Shown piece after piece: positions 9,156-62,593 of a stretch of DNA of 64,000 nucleotides. Made by a program: the position numbers and the translations under genes. The first letter of the stretch is position 1; the number at the start of each line of letters is the position of its first letter. The notes below the pieces were generated by a model, which saw only the letters and a program-made list of their open reading frames with translations, was not told the origin of the DNA and made no database searches. The stretch is from a bacterium (lineage in GTDB: Bacteria > Fidelibacterota > Marinisomatia > Marinisomatales > UBA1611), in NCBI GenBank assembly GCA_004321745.1, contig SGYO01000005.1, positions 1 to 64,000 of the forward strand, read 5' to 3'.

Positions 9156-9548
9156 TTAATTGTTTATGCTTCCTTCAATACATGTTGTCTTGAAACCACC
9201 TCTAATGTTATAAATTGTAGTTATTTGAATTTTTTTTGTTTCAAGTATTGAGCTTAGATCATCATAGATACGTTTTGTTGCACCTTCTTGATAGATACCA
9301 ACACTGCGGAAACTAGTAAAATAGTATTTTAAAGATTTTAGTTCTATGCATTTTCCCCCCGCAGGAAAATATTCAATCCTAACTTTTGCTAAGTCTGGGA
9401 GACCACTAAAAGGGCAAACTGCACTAAATTCATTTGTTTCTGTTTTTATATATTGGTCTAATGATTCAAAGGGGAATGTTTCAAGAAAGTCAGCATTAAT
9501 TTTAGATTCATCATCGTAGTTAAAAATTTTTCCTTCCGCTTTCGCCAT
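9156..9548 (-). CDS. queF: NADPH-dependent 7-cyano-7-deazaguanine reductase QueF
   Basis: [41 protein letters not shown] motif. Confidence 0.92.
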
Positions 9549-11581: not shown

Positions 11582-11934
11582 GGGGGCGACCGGCATTCGA
11601 CGAGATATGTGAGATGCCAAATCGCATGCGGAGGATTTCAGTACCCTCCTTAATCATCTGATAAAAACAATATATGCCGATTATGGCTATATGGCTGCAG
11701 CTTAATTGAGGTAGCCCGCTTCTTAATCAATTTGCTTGTAGTTTTTTAAAGGAGCGTCATCAATACAAGCTAGTTTCAAATCCGCCTATGAATTTGAAAT
11801 GAAATATAATAGGCTGGCTCTTTTTGATTTGGGTCTCTAATAGAAAGAAGAGTAAGAAAATAATTAGAAGACTAAGCATGTAGAAGTTTTTCATTAAACT
11901 ATTTCGGACGGGAGTTCGATTCTCCCCGCCTCCA
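11582..11934 (+). ncRNA. ssrA: tmRNA
   Basis: 5' GGGGGCGACCGGCATTCGACGAG; 3' GACGGGAGTTCGATTCTCCCCGCCTCCA; 5'/3' acceptor pairing; internal reading frame ...ADYGYMAAA*. Confidence 0.93.
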
Positions 11935-11936
11935 CA

Positions 11937-14561
11937 TTAAATGTTAATTTCAAAAAATATCATTGGTGTTATTCCAAGCATCATAACATTAGATATAATT
12001 CTTCCCGATGAAAAAGGGTTGTACCTCTTATGACTAATATTTTTTCTGTTGTAAACGTTATAAATGGAAAGTCCTGAATTAATGTTAAAATATTTCAAAT
12101 TAAAATCTTTTGATATATTAATATCAAGATGATGTGAAGGTGGCAATCGTAATGTGTTTTTTTTGCCTTGAACAATATCTACCTTAAAATCAGTAGTAAT
12201 GTTAATATAGTCTTCGTTTGTGAATGACCTTCCAGAAGAGTAAGACCAGCTGGCGGTAAGATTCCAATCGAGTATAGAAGTAATTAAAACTGTTTTCAGT
12301 TCATGGGCAAAATCATGATCAGCTTTATAAAATTTTCCATTATTTATATTATTGAATGAGTAATTTGTTTTATTATAATGATAGGAGATCCATCCATTGA
12401 TTGATTTGTTTTTTCTCCTCATTAACAATTCTATTCCATTACTTTTTTCTCTGCCCTCGTTCTCAAGCAAGTAATCGCTATTTATGTCACTATCATCAGA
12501 TAATATATTCATTGGTGATAAATATTCTTCGAAGTTAAAATGTCCCTCACTTTTTCTAGTATACAACGAAAAGCTGCCCTCACTAAAATGGTTTTTCAAG
12601 TGCATACCTATCTGAGAATTAGACGAACGTACAATAGGAACTCTTTTCCCTGATATTATCCAAGTGCTCTTTGAGCTCCTCGTGCTGAATGAATTATTAA
12701 ATTGATGAATAAATTGATTATTTTTACCAGAGGCACCTTCAATAGTTAGATTAGGGGTTACGTTAAATGTGCCAGAAAGCCTAGGTTCTAAATAATTCAT
12801 TTTATTATCAGAAAAAAATGAATTTCTTAGTCCTAGAACTAAACGTAATTTTTTATTTGGAGTCCAAATATCTTCAAAAAATATTGAATGTAAAAGAGAT
12901 TGTTGAGAGGCATTGCTTTCTTCTAAAATTTCGCTCAAAGACCTTATATTATTCAAATTTATATTGTAATCTGATCTATTATATCCGGATTGAATCACAT
13001 GATTTTTTATCAATCTAATATTTTGGTAAATGTTGATTGATTCATCATTAAATGTATTACGTTCTTGTATGGATTGAGCTAGCTCATCTTTAGGTGAAGA
13101 GATGTCATATAGTTTTGAATAATGCTTGCTTGAGTATGTTGTATTTGCATAAGAAAATTTAATGTTCCACTTTGGGTTGGCATTATATGTCCATTTCACT
13201 ATTCCTCCAGAATTAGATAAATTTGTATCTTCCTCAATTTTTGAGGAGTCATAACGTAAAATATCTTCAAAACCATAAAATTCCCTTTTTTCATCAATGT
13301 TATCCTCACCTTGCATTAAAGTGAATGATATGCTGTTCATAGGGTTAATCATATATGTTGCTACAGCACTAATATCTTGAAAATTAAATTTAGGTGTATA
13401 ATTTGAAGATTGGCTTGAATTAGCTGAGAGACTTATGAGGTTAAAATTATCATCCCCAATTATAAAATCTTTAATTGAAGAATAGAGTTTGGTGGGCACG
13501 ATATCATTACATATTCTTCCTGTTAATATGAAGCTTCCATTTGATGAAATAGGCATTTCAAGCTGAGCGCTATTTGTAGTAAAGTTTGTGAAAACTTTTG
13601 CTTTAGTTCCATTATTACTACCAGTTTTATTTGTCATTTCTAACAATCCTGAAATCTTACCTCCATACCTTGCAGGATAAACACCTTTATAAACCTGTAC
13701 ATCCTTAATTGATGCTGCTTGAACGCTATTTAAAAAACCAAACATATGGGTGTCGTGATATAAAGACATACCATCAATTAAAATTAAATTTTGTTCAGGA
13801 CGTCCTCCGCGAATGTATAATTCTGCATTCCCTCCTAACCCTGCATTAATTCCAGGTAGTAATTGAAGGGATCTAAAAATATCAATTTCCCCTATTGTTG
13901 GTAGTGTTGATACATGCCTTGGAGAAAAAGATATTTTACCAGGATCTTTTGCTATGCTTAGAAATTCTCTAGCGACCCCCCTTATAAAGATATTTTTTGA
14001 TTTCAGTACTTTTTGGTTTAAAAATATATTTATGAAGATGTTTTCATTTTTTAATGTTGTTACCACTTGTTTGTGAGTTTCATAACCTATGTAAGAAATG
14101 AGTAAAGTACATATTTTTGAGTCAATGTTTGATAGCGAAAAAAATCCTTCATTGTCTGAAGCTGTTCCAATGTTTAAGTATGGGATATAGATATTTGCGT
14201 ATGGTATGGCCTCATTGGATTTCTTATCATGCACTCTGCCAGTTACATTAAACTTTACATCATCTATTTCAAATATTGTGTATTGATTCCCAATTTTTTT
14301 CCAATCATAATCTATTTTAGATAATATAATGTTTAATACTGTTTCCAGATCACAGTCATAACAGTCTATTGAAACATATTGATTAGCTATTTTTGATGGA
14401 TATATAATTGGCACTTCATAATCAGTCACTATTTTTTGAAGAGCTTTATCAATAGGAATATTATTGTAAGAAATTGAGACTTGCGGATTGTTACTCCTTA
14501 TATGAGAGAAAATTAATAGAGGGAGTATCGCTATATACTTAAAGTAGGATGTAAGAGTCAC
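11937..14561 (-). CDS. TonB-dependent receptor with N-terminal STN and carboxypeptidase-like domains (FecA-like)
   Basis: STN region VSISYNNIPIDKALQKIVTDYEVPIIY; CarbopepD region GRVHDKKSNEAIPYANIYIP; plug AELYIRGGRPEQNLILIDGMSLY. Confidence 0.88.
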   Translation of the reverse strand: MTLTSYFKYIAILPLLIFSHIRSNNPQVSISYNNIPIDKALQKIVTDYEVPIIYPSKIANQYVSIDCYDCDLETVLNIILSKIDYDWKKIGNQYTIFEIDDVKFNVTGRVHDKKSNEAIPYANIYIPYLNIGTASDNEGFFSLSNIDSKICTLLISYIGYETHKQVVTTLKNENIFINIFLNQKVLKSKNIFIRGVAREFLSIAKDPGKISFSPRHVSTLPTIGEIDIFRSLQLLPGINAGLGGNAELYIRGGRPEQNLILIDGMSLYHDTHMFGFLNSVQAASIKDVQVYKGVYPARYGGKISGLLEMTNKTGSNNGTKAKVFTNFTTNSAQLEMPISSNGSFILTGRICNDIVPTKLYSSIKDFIIGDDNFNLISLSANSSQSSNYTPKFNFQDISAVATYMINPMNSISFTLMQGEDNIDEKREFYGFEDILRYDSSKIEEDTNLSNSGGIVKWTYNANPKWNIKFSYANTTYSSKHYSKLYDISSPKDELAQSIQERNTFNDESINIYQNIRLIKNHVIQSGYNRSDYNINLNNIRSLSEILEESNASQQSLLHSIFFEDIWTPNKKLRLVLGLRNSFFSDNKMNYLEPRLSGTFNVTPNLTIEGASGKNNQFIHQFNNSFSTRSSKSTWIISGKRVPIVRSSNSQIGMHLKNHFSEGSFSLYTRKSEGHFNFEEYLSPMNILSDDSDINSDYLLENEGREKSNGIELLMRRKNKSINGWISYHYNKTNYSFNNINNGKFYKADHDFAHELKTVLITSILDWNLTASWSYSSGRSFTNEDYINITTDFKVDIVQGKKNTLRLPPSHHLDINISKDFNLKYFNINSGLSIYNVYNRKNISHKRYNPFSSGRIISNVMMLGITPMIFFEINI

Positions 14562-52282: not shown

Positions 52283-52918
52283 TTATTTTTCATGAGATTC
52301 TATCTTTTTTGGCTGGTAATACTTTGCAGCTCTCCAGGAACCATAAATGTCTGATATATAAAAAATCAGCGAGGTTGTACCAAAAGCATTCATCATTATT
52401 GTATTTTGATTTTCTTTGGCAAATGAATATGCTTTTAAGGAAGCAAATAAATTTAATGCGCCATACATACCATCATATACTCTGCCAGAATAGATTTTTC
52501 CCATTCCTGGGATTATAGCAAGCACAGTGCTTAGTACTGTCCATTTATGCCCTTTGTGGTAAAAGGTTGGGCTTACATAATCAATTAATCGGCCGTCTTC
52601 ATCTTTATATGAGCCATTTATTTTTTGATGATAGTAAAGTGCAGATGGATTACATCTAGTGATTCGATCTAATCCAATTATTGTACCATACAGAGAGCCG
52701 TATTCCTTAATCGCTAAACTACAGTAATTAGAACAGCTAGGGTAAAATTGACAATTAAATGCTTCTGATTTATAAGATATTTTTTGCCATTGGACTATTG
52801 GAAATATAAAAGCTTTTTGAAAAATAGAGGTTTTGTTTGATTTTAATAAAGAGTCAGCCGGGGTCTCAGGTTGAGCTGAAATTAGAGAAACTATAATTAT
52901 CGTTATAATTTTTTTCAT
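52283..52918 (-). CDS. yidD: YidD-family membrane protein insertion factor fused to a DUF5683/TM2-like C-terminus
   Basis: FNCQFYPSCSNYCSLAIKEYGSLYGTIIGLDRITRCNP (YidD); C-terminal IIPGMGKIYSGRVYDGMYGAL. Confidence 0.8.
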   Translation of the reverse strand: MKKIITIIIVSLISAQPETPADSLLKSNKTSIFQKAFIFPIVQWQKISYKSEAFNCQFYPSCSNYCSLAIKEYGSLYGTIIGLDRITRCNPSALYYHQKINGSYKDEDGRLIDYVSPTFYHKGHKWTVLSTVLAIIPGMGKIYSGRVYDGMYGALNLFASLKAYSFAKENQNTIMMNAFGTTSLIFYISDIYGSWRAAKYYQPKKIESHEK

Positions 52919-53346: not shown

Positions 53347-53982
53347 ATGAGATATAAACATATTGTTTGGGATTGGAATGGCACACTCCTCAATGATCTA
53401 TGGCTATGCATTGAATCAATTAATTTTGTTTTAAAGTCAAGGGGAATGTCACAGGTTGATAAGAAAAGCTACAAAAGCATATTTACCTTTCCTGTTATAA
53501 AGTATTACGAACACCTGGGCTTTGATTTTTCAAAAGAAAAATTCCCGATCCCAGGATTTTTAAATTATTACAGAAATTATTTTAAAAAATGCAATCTTCA
53601 TCAACATGTACATGAAGTTTTAAAAAAAAATAGAGATAACAGGCTTACCCAGTCTATTTTATCTGCCGGTAAGCAAGATTCATTAATTAATTGGGTAGCT
53701 CATCACAAAATTGATCATTATTTTAATGCAATAGTTGGGATTGAAAATGATGCAGCTGATGGTAAAACAGATGCTGGATTAAATTGGTTATCTAAAGGAG
53801 ACATTTCCAAAAAGGAAATATTGCTTATAGGCGATACAATTCACGATAGTGACGTCGCTGAAAAAATGGGTGTCCATTGCGTTTTGGTTGACATTGGCCA
53901 TGTTAGTCGCGAAAGATTATTAAAGACAGGGCGTAATGTTTTTGAATCTCTTGATTCATTAAATAAATATATAAATGGTTAA
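53347..53982 (+). CDS. HAD-family hydrolase, phosphoglycolate phosphatase-like
   Basis: VWDWNGTLLNDLWLCIESIN; LLIGDTIHDSDVAEKMGVHCVLV. Confidence 0.85.
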   Translation: MRYKHIVWDWNGTLLNDLWLCIESINFVLKSRGMSQVDKKSYKSIFTFPVIKYYEHLGFDFSKEKFPIPGFLNYYRNYFKKCNLHQHVHEVLKKNRDNRLTQSILSAGKQDSLINWVAHHKIDHYFNAIVGIENDAADGKTDAGLNWLSKGDISKKEILLIGDTIHDSDVAEKMGVHCVLVDIGHVSRERLLKTGRNVFESLDSLNKYING

Positions 53983-53984
53983 TT

Positions 53985-54013
53985 AAAAAACCCTCGGCTC
54001 GCGAGGGTTTTTT
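53985..54013. terminator. Bidirectional Rho-independent terminator
   Basis: aaaaaaCCCTCGgctcgCGAGGGtttttt. Confidence 0.9.
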
Positions 54014-54149
54014 AATACAAAGTGAACGCTGACCTCCTAAAAGGTTTCAACTCTTAGGTGTGTTACGCAGCTGATCCTTTGGAGGTCAGCGTTATTATAA
54101 AATTAGACAACTGATCACCTCCTTTCTTTAAATTAATTAAAAACACACA
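53985..54149 (-). ncRNA. Candidate small structured transcript with extended SD, leader ORF and long hairpin
   Basis: Minus strand: TTGATG-16-TATAAT promoter (54183-54156), AAAGGAGGTGATC (54125-54113), 15-codon TTG ORF (54110-54063), 13-bp perfect stem 54025-54037/54081-54093, then terminator. Confidence 0.55.
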
Positions 54150-54155
54150 ATAAAA

Positions 54156-54183
54156 ATTATATCCAAAAATAAATAAACATCAA
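54156..54183 (-). promoter_or_regulatory. Sigma70-like promoter for the candidate small transcript
   Basis: Minus strand TTGATG - 16 nt - TATAAT. Confidence 0.5.
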
Positions 54184-54240
54184 ATATTCTTTAAGTATTT
54201 ACCTTTTATTGTTTTTCAAAAGTTGAATTAAATTTTAACA

Positions 54241-56260: not shown

Positions 56261-59200
56261 GTGGTTATAAAATACATATATCTTTTTTTCTTAGGCATTT
56301 TATTATCAATGTCTAATGCGATATCTCCTTATCATTATTTGAGCGCGCAGGGAAGCGAATCTATTAGTTTGAATGACCAAGAGCAGTTTTCTCCTTTTTT
56401 ATATGTACCACATCCTGAATTTGTGGTCAATCCTTTTCCAAATTATACAAAGAACTTAATACAGCCCTTAGACTCAACGTCAACAGTTAAAGGTCTTTTT
56501 AACATAAAGTATGATTATTTTAAGACAAAAGTCACTCTAGCTAAAGATTGGAGCACAATAACTATTACTGAAAATATTGATGGATCTTCGTTTAAAATTC
56601 CATTTATAGCTGATGTTGAATGGTATTTGCAAAAGTATAATCAGAGGCAAAGTTATTTAAAGTTCATTGAGATAATGCAAAAATCAGCATCTGATGGGTC
56701 TAGTAAAAGAAAAGGTCAAATGATGGAGGTTGTCGGAGTAGACCTTGGTAACCTTGGCAGAGCATCATTGAGCCTTAATGGTAATGTTACAATTACAGGT
56801 AATATGATTTTTCAAGATCAAGAACTTGTTCGATCTTCATTGAACCAAACTCAAAATACCCATCTTGAATTTGATCAAAAACAACATCTTAACATTCAAG
56901 GTAAAATAGGCGATCGCATTACTGTAAATATGGACCAAGATTCAGAAAGGCAATTTGATTGGGAAAATAATATTCGCATTAATTATGAAGGGTTTGAGGA
57001 TGATATCATTCAAAAAATTGAAGCTGGTAACATATCATTATCGCTTCCTTCAACTAAGTATGTTACCTTTTCCGGGAAAAATCAAGGCCTCTTTGGTATC
57101 AAAGCCATATCAAAATTGGGCCCTATCGATATAACAACAATAGCTTCAATAGAAAAGGCTAAAAAAGAGCAAGAGGAATATAAAGGCGGATCTCAATCTA
57201 GCACTCAGCAGATTCGAGATGTTGATTGGATCAAAAATAGATACTTTTTCATTCACCCCTGGTTTCGGAATGGTGTTGATACTTTAATAGTAAATAATTT
57301 TGTAAATATACCATCATTCTATCCATTAAGAAATGGGCTCCACTACATTGGAAACTTGGTGGTGAAAAATTTTGAATTATATAAATCGATTAATACTAAT
57401 GATGCGGGTGCTGTAACAGGGACAGCATATATTGACCCTCTAAACCTTAATGATTCAACATATATTGATGATAATGAAACTGGAAATTTCATTCGGTTAG
57501 AGCCAGGTACTAATTACGAATTAAGCGCTGACTTGGGTTATATAAGGTTAAGAGATATGGTAATGAATGAGATACTTGGTTGTTCATTCATTCTAGAGGA
57601 TAGAAATACTGGGCAATTGGTAATGGAGGTCGGTTCACCAGCTGATTCACTTGGTACAAATCTATCGCTAATGATGCTAAAACCTAGAAACAGTCATCCA
57701 AATCACCCTAGTTGGCCTTTAATGTTTAAAAATGTGTATTACCTTGGAACCACACAGATAAATCAAGAAGGATTTGAAGTTAAAATAATTAATAAAAGAT
57801 CTACACCTGAAAGTGATCGAGATAAAGCAACTAGTCTTCCATATATTACTTTATTTGGTTTGGATAGTTTGGATGTTAATGGTTCTCGCCAATATGATGA
57901 AATAATTGATGTTCAATCAGGTAATATAATTAACATGCTCAATGGAGAATTATTAATCCCTATGTTACATCCATTTGCTGTTCATGATTCACTAGAAGGC
58001 GGAAATAGGGTAGCGGAATTAGAGGGGCAGCTTGGTACCGGGAAAATGTATACTTCATCTATTTCTTCAGAAATAAATAGCGATAATAGATTTGTAATAG
58101 AAACTAAATACAGCAATCAGAGTTCTACCATTAATTTAGGTTTCATGTTAGTTGAGGGTAGTGAAGAAGTTGTTCAAAATAATATAATTTTAAAAAGAGG
58201 TATTGATTATCAAATAGATTATTTTACTGGCACTATCGTATTGATGGGAAGCGCTGCAGACGATCCAAATGCTGATTTAAAAGTACGGTATGATAGACAT
58301 GAAATTGTTTCTTTTGATAAGAAAACAATCTTTGGTACTAGAGCTCAAATGGATTTAGGCGAAAAATCATTTATTGGAATCACTGCCCTTTACTACAACC
58401 AATCAATTATGAATCAAAAAATTGAAGTTGGTTATGAGCCAACCAGAAATTTCATTTGGGATTTGAATGGTAGGTACGAATGGGAGTTAGATGGAGTTAC
58501 TCGTTTTTTAGATCGATTGCCTGTAATTGAGACAGATAAAATGACTAATCTTTCCATTGAGGGAGAAATAGCTCAGGTATTACCAAATCCTAATTCGATA
58601 AATAATGCAGCTACAGGAGACCCTAATGGCGTAGCTTTTATCGACGATTTTGAAGGTTCAAAGCGAACAACATCACCGTCAATTCAAAGGAGATTTTGGA
58701 AACTCTCATCTGTACCAAATACTTTTGATACTGATTTAAATGTTTTTGGAGGTCAATACGCTCAAAAAAATAGAGGTGAGTTATTTTGGTATAATCCATA
58801 CATACCGGTAAGAACTAGAGAAATTTGGCCAAACCAATCCACCTCTGTTCAGGCTGGTAATGAAACGACGGATGTTTTGGTGCTAAAATATCGTAAAAGA
58901 TCTCATCAAAAAAACATTAGTAACGATTCAACCTGGGTTGGTGTAACTACTTCTTTATATTCAGGAGATTATGATCAAACTCAAAGTAAATTTTTTGAGA
59001 TATGGTTAAAAGGGAACAAAGGAAATCTTACAATTGATCTAGGTAAAATAAGTGAAGATTGGGATGGGAACGGAGCATTAAATACTGAGGATATTCCAGA
59101 AGCTGGATTAACGTTAGGGAACGGTTTTTTAGAAGATCAAGAAGATACTGGTTTAGATGGTTGTTTTGATGAATACGAAAATGGCTGGGGTGGCTGTTTA

Positions 59201-62200
59201 GAGCAAAATACGTATCAATTTTATGTTGATCAAAATGAAACTAATTTAATTAACACTGGTTATGATGTGGATCCTAGTGATCCTAATGGGGATAATTGGA
59301 ATTATGATCAAGGTAGTAATGACTATTCCAAGGCAAATGGTACTGAGGGAAATGGTACTGGTTCAAAAATTCAAGAGGGTGGTAAATATCCAGATACTGA
59401 AGATCTAGATCGTTCTGGATTTCTTGATAAGGTTAATGATTATTTTTCGACTAGTTTTGATTTGACTGATACAACCTATCTTGCTGGGCAGACTGAAAAA
59501 AATGGTATTCCAACTGGATGGAAATTATTTAGAATTCCTTTATCAGATTTCAAAAACTCCGGCTCTACTGAGTGGAATGAAATTCGTTACATTAGAATGT
59601 CGGTATCAGATTTTGATTCATTATATTCATCTTTGCAGGTAGCAAAAATTGAAATTGTAGGAAACGAATGGCAGGAGTTGGGCGTATTTGCTCCATCAAA
59701 TGATGGTGAGGATAACAATACTGTTAGTTTGAAAATGAAAAATAAGATTTCAACAAAGACCCAATCAATATTAACGAATGATGATTTTCCATCTTTTCAG
59801 ATTGCTGTAATAAATACGGAAGACAATGCTGAATACACTCCTCCTGATGGGGTAAAAGGGGAATATGACAGAATAAACCAAATAAGGTCAAAAGAACAAT
59901 CATTGGTAATGAAATTTAATAATTTACCTCCGCTATCTTCTGGTTCAGCTCAGAAAACATTATACACTTTGAATGATGATCAAAAAAGAAGTTTCATGAC
60001 ATACGATTTAATGAAGATGTATGTCTATGGTAAAAGTCAATGGATTACTCATTTAAACACAAATGTTGAAATTTTTCTTAGGTTCGGAATTGGTGAGGAT
60101 TATTATGAAGTAACTCAACCAGTATATAGCGGTTGGGATGAAGATAAAGGCAGAAACTCTATTGAACTTCAATTAGATTGGTTAGCTGAACTCAAATTAA
60201 AGGATTCGGTATCTGTAAAACGCTTTAAAGACACGGATGTTTTCATTGATTCTTCAGATGTGATAAGGTATTTATTCACTGATGATGACGGCCTGCAAAC
60301 AGGGAAGCAGATCTATATTAAAGGAAAACCTGCTTTAAATAGAATTCAATATTTTGTGATGGGTGTGAGGAACACCTCAGACCAAATTATTGATGGGGAG
60401 GTATGGGTAGATGAGTTACGTTTAAGTGGAGTAAAAAAAGATCGAGGAGTTGCAATGAGGCTGCAGTCGTCCCTGAAACTTGCAGACCTTGGGACTGCAA
60501 ATTTTACATACAGTAGGCAAGATGCGGATTTTCACCGGCTTCAGGAAAGGCTCTCTAGGGGAACTAGCACAGCTGAAAACTTTAACATTTCAGGCAGACT
60601 GGACCTCCACCGCTTTTTGCCTAGGTCTTGGGGTTTTAGTTTGCCAGTGAATGCATCCATAACTCAAGCTACAAACACCCCAAAATATTTTCCCGGTGAA
60701 GATATTTTAGTGGATCAAAATGCTGCTCCGGATACAATAATCTCTCAAAATCAATCTGTAAGTTTCAGTGCTTCTCTAGCTAAGGCTTCTAAGTCTGACA
60801 ATAAATTGATAAAGTACACAGTAGATAATATTAAAACAAATTTTAGTGCATCGCAGTCCAAGTCATCAGATATAACATATGATCAAAAATGGTCTGAGTC
60901 CTATTCAGGAAAGGTTAGTTATAGTTTCCCATTTGGGAGGGATAACTACATTAGCCCATTAAAATGGGCTAAAGATATGGCCTTTTTAGGGCCACTGAGT
61001 GATTGGCAGTTATATTATACACCATCAGGTTTTAACACTGCAATGAGCTTCACTGAGAAATTATCCTGGAATGAAACTAGGTCTTCGATAAGGTCTCCAG
61101 ATAGTTACAACTTTGGATTAAGTAGAAATATGAATTTAGATTATAAAGTAACAAATAATTTGTCTACAAAATATGCATGGACAGGATCTAGTAAGTTAAA
61201 TGATTATAGAGGATATGCATGGGTTGCATTAAAAAATCTTGACCCAGGTCTTGTGACAAATATTTCGGAAACAATGAATACTACATATAGTCCACGATAT
61301 TTAGAATGGTTGAAACCAAATTTTAGCTATTCTGCTAATTATCGCTGGACAAATGATTTATCTAGGGAGGGGCAAAACATCAGTTCAAATCTCAGGTTTA
61401 ACTCTAGTTTTACAGTAACACCTGTTCAAATATTTGAATTTTTTTATAAACCGCCTAGAAAAAATGCTAGAAGTAGCTCAAGGGCTAGAGGTGGCAGATC
61501 TAGAACAAGATCAAGAGCTAATCAACAAAACAATGCAACAAATAAGAAAAAAGAAACTAAAGAAATTAAATCGCTATCCTATGTTCATAGTATTATGGAT
61601 AAAGTAAATCCAATATCGTTAAGCTATACTGAGACTTTAAATCGTTCCTCAAATCAAGTCATTGGAGAGGTTCCGGCTGGTTACAAATTTGGTTGGATGC
61701 CAGATCATAATCTGGAACAGTCTGAGGAAGTTGGATCAAATCTCGGAAGTTGGGACCACAAAAGAGATGGCTCCATTCGGACTGGATTAAAACTTTCAAG
61801 GTTAGTGACGATTAACTTTAATTTTTCCCAGAACTTTTCAAGCGTAATTAGTGGAACTGGGGTTGAACAACGAACTATGACTAGAGACTATATAGCACTT
61901 GATGAATTATTTAAAGAAGGTCTTCCATTCCCGGGCTGGAGTTTTAGGTTGGCTGGCGTTGAAAAATGGCCGATAATTAAGTGGGTTGCCAAATCAGCTT
62001 CTATAGATCATAGTTATGCTGGAAAAGAAACTAGATCTTGGCAGTTTGAAGATATTGAACCTGAAAATATAGATTTCTTTAAATTAGCTAATTTTGTTGA
62101 AGATTATAAAGACTATGAGAGATCTTCAAGAATAAATATGAATTTCTCTCCTTTAATTGGATTTAATATGAGTTTGAAAAAGAATATTTCTTTTACATTT

Positions 62201-62593
62201 AGACACAATAGAAATTTAGCATTGGATGAATTACCAACTGGGCTTACAATAAGGAAAGATCATAGTTATACATCAACAGCATCATATACCCATAGGGGCG
62301 GGATGACCATTCCTATTCCATATTACGGAGATATCAAATTAAATAATAATATCAGTTTTACATTAAATTTTGATATGAATGATAGTAAAGAGTTTAAGTC
62401 TGGTGATAAAATTGATTTAGAAGAAGGTGCTTTTTCATCAAATTGGAAAACTGGATTAAGAATATCATATCAATTTTCAAACAAGATTTCAGGTGGCCTT
62501 AGGTACGAATACAGAGAAAGTGATAGTAGGACAATGGGAGAGAAAATTGATAGAGATTTTGGGTTTGACATTAACATAGCAATAACAGGATGA
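56261..62593 (+). CDS. sprA: SprA/Sov-type T9SS outer-membrane translocon
   Basis: 2110 aa; AFIDDFEGSKRTTSPSIQRRFWKLSS, RGELFWYNPYIPVRTREIW, IDGEVWVDELRLSGVKKDRGVAMRLQSSLKLADLGTANFTYSRQDADFHRL. Confidence 0.92.
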   Translation: MVIKYIYLFFLGILLSMSNAISPYHYLSAQGSESISLNDQEQFSPFLYVPHPEFVVNPFPNYTKNLIQPLDSTSTVKGLFNIKYDYFKTKVTLAKDWSTITITENIDGSSFKIPFIADVEWYLQKYNQRQSYLKFIEIMQKSASDGSSKRKGQMMEVVGVDLGNLGRASLSLNGNVTITGNMIFQDQELVRSSLNQTQNTHLEFDQKQHLNIQGKIGDRITVNMDQDSERQFDWENNIRINYEGFEDDIIQKIEAGNISLSLPSTKYVTFSGKNQGLFGIKAISKLGPIDITTIASIEKAKKEQEEYKGGSQSSTQQIRDVDWIKNRYFFIHPWFRNGVDTLIVNNFVNIPSFYPLRNGLHYIGNLVVKNFELYKSINTNDAGAVTGTAYIDPLNLNDSTYIDDNETGNFIRLEPGTNYELSADLGYIRLRDMVMNEILGCSFILEDRNTGQLVMEVGSPADSLGTNLSLMMLKPRNSHPNHPSWPLMFKNVYYLGTTQINQEGFEVKIINKRSTPESDRDKATSLPYITLFGLDSLDVNGSRQYDEIIDVQSGNIINMLNGELLIPMLHPFAVHDSLEGGNRVAELEGQLGTGKMYTSSISSEINSDNRFVIETKYSNQSSTINLGFMLVEGSEEVVQNNIILKRGIDYQIDYFTGTIVLMGSAADDPNADLKVRYDRHEIVSFDKKTIFGTRAQMDLGEKSFIGITALYYNQSIMNQKIEVGYEPTRNFIWDLNGRYEWELDGVTRFLDRLPVIETDKMTNLSIEGEIAQVLPNPNSINNAATGDPNGVAFIDDFEGSKRTTSPSIQRRFWKLSSVPNTFDTDLNVFGGQYAQKNRGELFWYNPYIPVRTREIWPNQSTSVQAGNETTDVLVLKYRKRSHQKNISNDSTWVGVTTSLYSGDYDQTQSKFFEIWLKGNKGNLTIDLGKISEDWDGNGALNTEDIPEAGLTLGNGFLEDQEDTGLDGCFDEYENGWGGCLEQNTYQFYVDQNETNLINTGYDVDPSDPNGDNWNYDQGSNDYSKANGTEGNGTGSKIQEGGKYPDTEDLDRSGFLDKVNDYFSTSFDLTDTTYLAGQTEKNGIPTGWKLFRIPLSDFKNSGSTEWNEIRYIRMSVSDFDSLYSSLQVAKIEIVGNEWQELGVFAPSNDGEDNNTVSLKMKNKISTKTQSILTNDDFPSFQIAVINTEDNAEYTPPDGVKGEYDRINQIRSKEQSLVMKFNNLPPLSSGSAQKTLYTLNDDQKRSFMTYDLMKMYVYGKSQWITHLNTNVEIFLRFGIGEDYYEVTQPVYSGWDEDKGRNSIELQLDWLAELKLKDSVSVKRFKDTDVFIDSSDVIRYLFTDDDGLQTGKQIYIKGKPALNRIQYFVMGVRNTSDQIIDGEVWVDELRLSGVKKDRGVAMRLQSSLKLADLGTANFTYSRQDADFHRLQERLSRGTSTAENFNISGRLDLHRFLPRSWGFSLPVNASITQATNTPKYFPGEDILVDQNAAPDTIISQNQSVSFSASLAKASKSDNKLIKYTVDNIKTNFSASQSKSSDITYDQKWSESYSGKVSYSFPFGRDNYISPLKWAKDMAFLGPLSDWQLYYTPSGFNTAMSFTEKLSWNETRSSIRSPDSYNFGLSRNMNLDYKVTNNLSTKYAWTGSSKLNDYRGYAWVALKNLDPGLVTNISETMNTTYSPRYLEWLKPNFSYSANYRWTNDLSREGQNISSNLRFNSSFTVTPVQIFEFFYKPPRKNARSSSRARGGRSRTRSRANQQNNATNKKKETKEIKSLSYVHSIMDKVNPISLSYTETLNRSSNQVIGEVPAGYKFGWMPDHNLEQSEEVGSNLGSWDHKRDGSIRTGLKLSRLVTINFNFSQNFSSVISGTGVEQRTMTRDYIALDELFKEGLPFPGWSFRLAGVEKWPIIKWVAKSASIDHSYAGKETRSWQFEDIEPENIDFFKLANFVEDYKDYERSSRINMNFSPLIGFNMSLKKNISFTFRHNRNLALDELPTGLTIRKDHSYTSTASYTHRGGMTIPIPYYGDIKLNNNISFTLNFDMNDSKEFKSGDKIDLEEGAFSSNWKTGLRISYQFSNKISGGLRYEYRESDSRTMGEKIDRDFGFDINIAITG

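Follow-up and report, generated by a model that had tools for sequence, protein, structure and literature searches.

What does a structured small RNA do when it carries a full-length Shine-Dalgarno (SD) sequence and its own short reading frame, and leads no gene? The question is raised by a locus in the window, by which we mean the whole stretch of 64,000 nucleotides analysed here. The minus-strand promoter, SD, TTG-initiated ORF, stem and terminator that an earlier note on this DNA had described were all found in place (Table 1), and the gene layout bore out its remark that no minus-strand gene follows and that the neighbouring HAD gene is convergent. With a convergent HAD gene on one flank and a divergent thioredoxin-like gene on the other, the RNA leads no gene.

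Table 1. Features of the locus, in window positions
Feature	Position	Strand	Basis
Stand-alone transcription unit	~54149-53985	-	promoter, SD, TTG ORF, 13-bp hairpin and terminator read from sequence
Promoter TTGATG-16-TATAAT	54183-54156	-	sequence; relatives' alignment
Element a, GTGTGT, near RNA 5' end	54148-54143	-	complementary to a' ACACAC
SD AAAGGAGGTGATC	54125-54113	-	sequence
S, full-tail SD AGAAAGGAGGTGATC	54127-54113	-	complementarity to 16S 3' end
Micro-ORF TTG TCT..., 15 codons, MSNFIITLTSKGSAA, stop TAA	54110-54063	-	relatives retain frame, length and stop
A, anti-SD-like arm AACGCTGACCTCC within ORF	54093-54081	-	pairs with S or S'
Inner stem TCAGCT/AGTTGA; loop contains stop codon and a'	54074-54047	-	predicted fold
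a' ACACAC, in inner-stem loop	54063-54058	-	complementary to a
S', SD-like 3' arm GGAGGTCAGCGTT	54037-54025	-	partner of A
Intrinsic terminator AAAAAACCCTCG-CGAGC-CGAGGGTTTTTT	54013-53985	-	sequence, MFE fold
HAD-family hydrolase gene, convergent, adjoins RNA 3' end	53347..53982	+	neighbour, outside RNA

The RNA folds at z = -4.85 relative to dinucleotide shuffles, none of the 200 shuffles being equally stable. The terminator reads CCCTCG-loop-CGAGGG-TTTTTT (54007-53985), and its hairpin is part of the MFE fold; a consensus terminator scanner gave no call at these positions, apparently because the T run pairs with an upstream A run. Being near-palindromic, the terminator probably works for the convergent HAD gene as well. 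At -35, the alignment of order relatives retains TTGAY in most of them. The exact SD core (AAGGAGGTGATC) occurs once in the 1.75-Mb genome, which rules out a repeat element. An antisense transcript of a 16S gene was likewise rejected, as the plus strand resembles the 16S end only across CTGATCACCTCCTTTC and the site contains no 16S gene.

The 16S gene of a same-genus genome (G002) ends in GGCTGGATCACCTCCTTTCT, and S is complementary to its 3' end across 15 nt; the claim that the SD is an exact complement of the 16S tail is thereby confirmed and the match extended. Use of such sites elsewhere was assessed in a census of the 48 window genes, with the first ATG taken as the start. An SD match of at least 6 nt was found for a single gene (0.5 expected from shuffles) and one of at least 5 nt for five (about 2.4 expected); few genes are SD-led, in support, for the window, of the suggestion that the genome is SD-poor. 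A good SD (AAAGGAG) precedes just one window gene, a QueF-like gene at 9156-9548 on the minus strand. Other features seen in the window were an ordinary tmRNA (11582-11937, plus strand, tag ADYGYMAAA), a 211-aa protein with a YidD domain and an extra C-terminal part (52283-52918, minus strand), and a 2110-codon frame which by eye resembles the type IX secretion protein SprA (56261-62593, plus strand).

What we take to be the target of the SAR406-97 probe is present exactly in the same-genus 16S gene, which places the host, a marine bacterium, in SAR406/Marinimicrobia. The rationale offered earlier, drawn from Bacteroidota and rpsU, therefore concerns the wrong phylum. In Bacteroidota, rpsU is a strong-SD exception in an SD-poor genome, and to that extent it resembles the window RNA; unlike the latter, it is protein-coding, belongs to another phylum and is not a stand-alone RNA.

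A DNA search recovered the RNA from five of six same-genus genomes with E below 1e-42, and across the order with weaker matches. Of 245 genomes from the phylum, 42 matched a covariance model at E <= 0.01, usually with one copy each, the weakest matches including shorter, GC-richer versions from another family. The SD, the UUG start, the UCU codon and the CTGACCTCC arm are near-invariant among relatives, and ORF length and stop are kept. Flanking genes differ from genus to genus, the commonest downstream neighbours being convergent, and this variable context fits a free-standing RNA. The RNA is conserved in the order, with covariation detected; conservation and fold together uphold the view that it is a real, structured RNA that stands alone and carries a full-tail SD. 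In one relative of the same class (L068, family f16) both arms are wholly changed (ATTGATTAT/ATAATCAAT), as are the SD-proximal bases (GGAGGTAATCAATTG).

Across about 120 relatives, the SD/start region covaries with arm A, the internal anti-SD-like arm (permutation z = -6.0); after collapse to 19 SD types, which controls for relatedness in part, the figure was 3 of 20,000 permutations. For A and S', both-sided changes were observed in 3 of the 12 pairs examined. These data support the earlier proposal that the arm within the ORF can pair either with the SD or with the 3' arm. Read on the minus strand, the paired arms contain about 21 G-U pairs against one A-C mismatch, in counts that exclude a model-search alignment in which both strands were mixed; the G-U pairs would be A-C on the other strand, which rules against a plus-strand transcript. 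The a:a' pseudoknot gave a weak signal (permutation p ~0.065), and related genera have GTGGA:TCCAC. The order of the arms differs by clade, S-A-S' in the window RNA and S-S'-A in Rhodobacterales. At the level of pairing, sequence comparison thus supports a toggle, and a ribosome-sensing role is plausible.

As for known families, no Rfam 15 family reaches its gathering score for the window RNA. CC2171 (RF01867), a Caulobacter sRNA whose function is listed as unknown in Rfam, matches below cut-off, at 24.5 bits against a gathering score of 75 bits, so under Rfam's threshold the window RNA falls outside the family; the top same-genus relative scores 33.9 bits. The SAR406 RNA itself is the best RF01867 match of the window genome and of most SAR406 genomes that match at all. 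In the cmscan alignment the 5' core of the family, GAAAGGAGGUGAUCC-NNUGUCU, finds an ungapped match in the window RNA, giving the two a common GAAAGGAGGUGAUC..NUGUCU, in addition to a short ORF, a terminator and a stand-alone position. They differ in phylum and in their hairpin arms, and the RF01867 helix AUUGUC/GACAAU (codons 3-5/pre-terminator region) is not found in the window RNA, its pairs being broken in that alignment and its sequence absent. An RNA-seq study of Mesorhizobium annotated a 215-nt unit as RF01867 (PMC5596092), which speaks indirectly for expression. In Brevundimonas and a Rhodobacter relative, three weak secondary RF01867 matches were noted, none of which contains the SD core. 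Judging by the common core and architecture, the window RNA probably works like the CC2171 family and is a distant relative of it.

The design is found well outside SAR406. The pattern AAAGGAGGTGRTCNNKTGTCT, derived from the ungapped core, occurs in at least 119 stretches of the genome collection; among the matches listed nearly all are from Alphaproteobacteria, the others being from Gemmatimonadota and Nitrospinota. A 21-nt core, AAAGGAGGTGRTC-NN-(A/G/T)TG-TCT, which a short ORF and a terminator follow, was compared with the reversed pattern as control, each group being named after the taxon of the genome whose relatives were sampled. It was present in 36 of 193 Alphaproteobacteria genomes (control 0), 67 of 151 for Gemmatimonadota (control 2) and 32 of 77 for Nitrospinota (control 2), at about one copy per carrier genome in all three. 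Start codons were GTG, TTG or ATG, and core matches with one mismatch had mostly ATG. Pattern loci of Brevundimonas and Bosea score as CC2171 members above cut-off, and so link the pattern with that Rfam family; for the RNAs scanned from Bradyrhizobium, Rhodobacter, Gemmatimonadota and Nitrospinota, no Rfam family reached its cut-off. By these sequence features, at least three bacterial groups beyond SAR406 have RNAs built in this way, and only the narrow CC2171 subset is catalogued. A literature search found no paper on the architecture of a full-tail SD with a micro-ORF in an RNA.

Gammaproteobacteria were dismissed as a stronghold, since 6 of 229 genomes against about 5 control matches is background by count. 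Four of the six appear genuine by eye. Two loci from Cellvibrionales/SAR92 (L168 and L130) are very short versions in which the SD core precedes GUG-UCU, the arm CACTGG complements CCAGTG, and about 60 nt past the SD comes a terminator, GGGAGCC/GGCTCCC, through which the ORF continues. In the Nitrospinota group (L259-L270) a CAGGGG/CCCCTG hairpin lies directly 5' of the SD, the arms are GGGAGCTTCC/GGAAGCTCCC, and the ORFs have 14-15 codons (for example MSSHSIKGASGVVAC). In an alphaproteobacterial MAG (L185), the SD/start core stands before a longer frame (MSKSMKTLVVASILMFGSAISSAAMAEC...) resembling an ordinary exported protein.

Could the SAR406 RNA and the alphaproteobacterial/CC2171 RNAs have arisen independently, their core being no more than the best possible fit to the universal 16S tail? 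The 16S sequence itself prescribes a full-tail SD, nothing aligns outside the core, the arm order differs, and the case for common origin is built on a short core and an architecture, with the Rfam model giving only its modest sub-threshold score. However, both sides have in common an identical start-codon spacing and the second codon UCU, the latter not dictated by 16S (the invariance of UCU is partly by construction, as it is in the search pattern), together with the short ORF, the SD-hiding arm and the terminator. Other SAR406 families, Nitrospinota and Gemmatimonadota also have versions of mixed features. Separate origin seems to us doubtful, though it keeps a real share of the probability, and distant relationship is the more probable.

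How might such an RNA operate? We consider it about an even call that a translated, trans-acting riboregulator of ~165 nt is encoded here as a gene of its own, switched by 30S binding and translation of the micro-ORF. During transcription, S:A would pair first and hide the SD; synthesis of S' would then allow A:S' to form and release it. In prefixes of the SAR406 RNAs, predicted SD accessibility was 0.49 before A, 0.24 after A and 0.45 after S' (shuffles ~0.30), and Nitrospinota prefixes showed the same predicted behaviour. In Alphaproteobacteria the SD is predicted to stay closed at full length (~0.27, shuffles 0.31), indicating that the timed-release step is not universal. A mature 30S subunit could dock on the freed full-tail SD, and translation as far as the stop codon in the hairpin loop would unzip A:S', so that the shape of the RNA would depend on how available 30S subunits are or on initiation. 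Selection would favour the act of translation at that place and not the peptide. As no conserved gene lies downstream, the output must act in trans, perhaps through S' or another arm exposed for pairing, perhaps through an altered RNA lifetime while the ribosome is held.

A simpler role, in line with the earlier note's idea of titration, is that of a sponge or test mRNA which captures mature 30S subunits through its full-tail SD, the short ORF merely recycling them. An SD spanning the entire 16S tail in an RNA with no downstream gene agrees with such a role, as does the SD-poor host window; Caulobacter, which carries the Rfam member CC2171, is also reported as SD-poor (24.6% of genes, 19.2% being expected by chance; PMC4117421). 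A sponge, however, needs neither a conserved stop position nor an internal anti-SD that hides its SD, and both are conserved; titration would moreover require a very high copy number. We regard a decoy as unlikely.

The same stop position bears on the idea of a dual-function RNA, or plain mRNA, made for a bioactive micropeptide. Read in frame 0, all of the 133 non-redundant ORFs reach a stop after 10-35 codons; for the two other frames the shares are 41% and 27%. A short, unbroken ORF behind a very strong start signal is seen in all relatives but one. Within orders the peptides are similar (MSRVILERGVGT.., MSHCHQ.., MSNSSSLLTSK..), and translation of two earlier Caulobacter ncRNAs, not necessarily including CC2171, is reported in PMC4117421. 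Between orders, however, the peptides have little in common beyond Met-Ser, and conserved residues coincide with paired RNA. Among 27 distinct Rhodobacterales ORFs, selected for a length of 18 and a motif in common, the stop always falls at codon 19 (TAG/TGA/TAA = 11/8/8), and codon-position entropy is equal across positions (0.62/0.70/0.62), third positions being no more variable than first and second, which argues against protein-type constraint on the peptide there. On this sequence evidence, start, frame and stop of the micro-ORF are conserved, and in Rhodobacterales the peptide appears unconstrained as a protein; a micropeptide function is accordingly quite improbable. SgrS, SR1 and VcdRP, dual-function sRNAs which likewise have a small ORF and their own terminator, encode conserved small proteins, whereas the peptide of the window type is apparently unconstrained, as judged from one clade, Rhodobacterales.

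That the RNA is a leader or attenuator acting on a neighbouring gene by terminator read-through, a reading already disfavoured, is very hard to credit: SD, micro-ORF, mutually exclusive arms and terminator are the architecture of leader-peptide attenuators, and His_leader and Leu_leader gave sub-threshold scores, but the gene that comes next in the window is convergent, as are the downstream neighbours that recur most often, which vary from genus to genus, and there is no run of regulatory codons. The likeness to such attenuators (the His, Leu and Phe leaders; trpL) extends to a conserved start and stop position; they differ from the window RNA, which has an extended SD and only those sub-threshold scores, no downstream gene and no regulatory codon run. 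In Sinorhizobium meliloti an attenuator RNA, rnTrpL/peTrpL, is reported to act in trans (PMC7298713). It resembles the window RNA as a short leader-ORF RNA existing as a free sRNA, and differs in being attenuator-derived with a downstream operon and in having no full-tail SD.

The observation that prompted this analysis is sound, and larger than the earlier note supposed. The window RNA has every feature of a proposed broad class, namely the core, a 10-35-codon ORF, an internal SD-complementary arm, a terminator and a stand-alone position. Put most broadly, this may be a multi-phylum class of stand-alone RNA that reads the mature 16S 3' tail, masks its own SD with an internal anti-SD mimic, senses free mature 30S subunits by translating a micro-ORF, the peptide itself playing no part, and passes its signal on in trans; we advance this full proposal only tentatively. 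The sequence evidence makes CC2171, a small orphan Rfam family, and the window RNA members of a single design shared by four or more bacterial groups. Selection acts there on the ribosome docking site, on where translation stops and on the switching arms, and seemingly not on the peptide. The finding bears on why lineages that hardly use SD sites retain one full-length SD, and cultured Alphaproteobacteria could show whether a dedicated RNA reports on free or mature 30S subunits.
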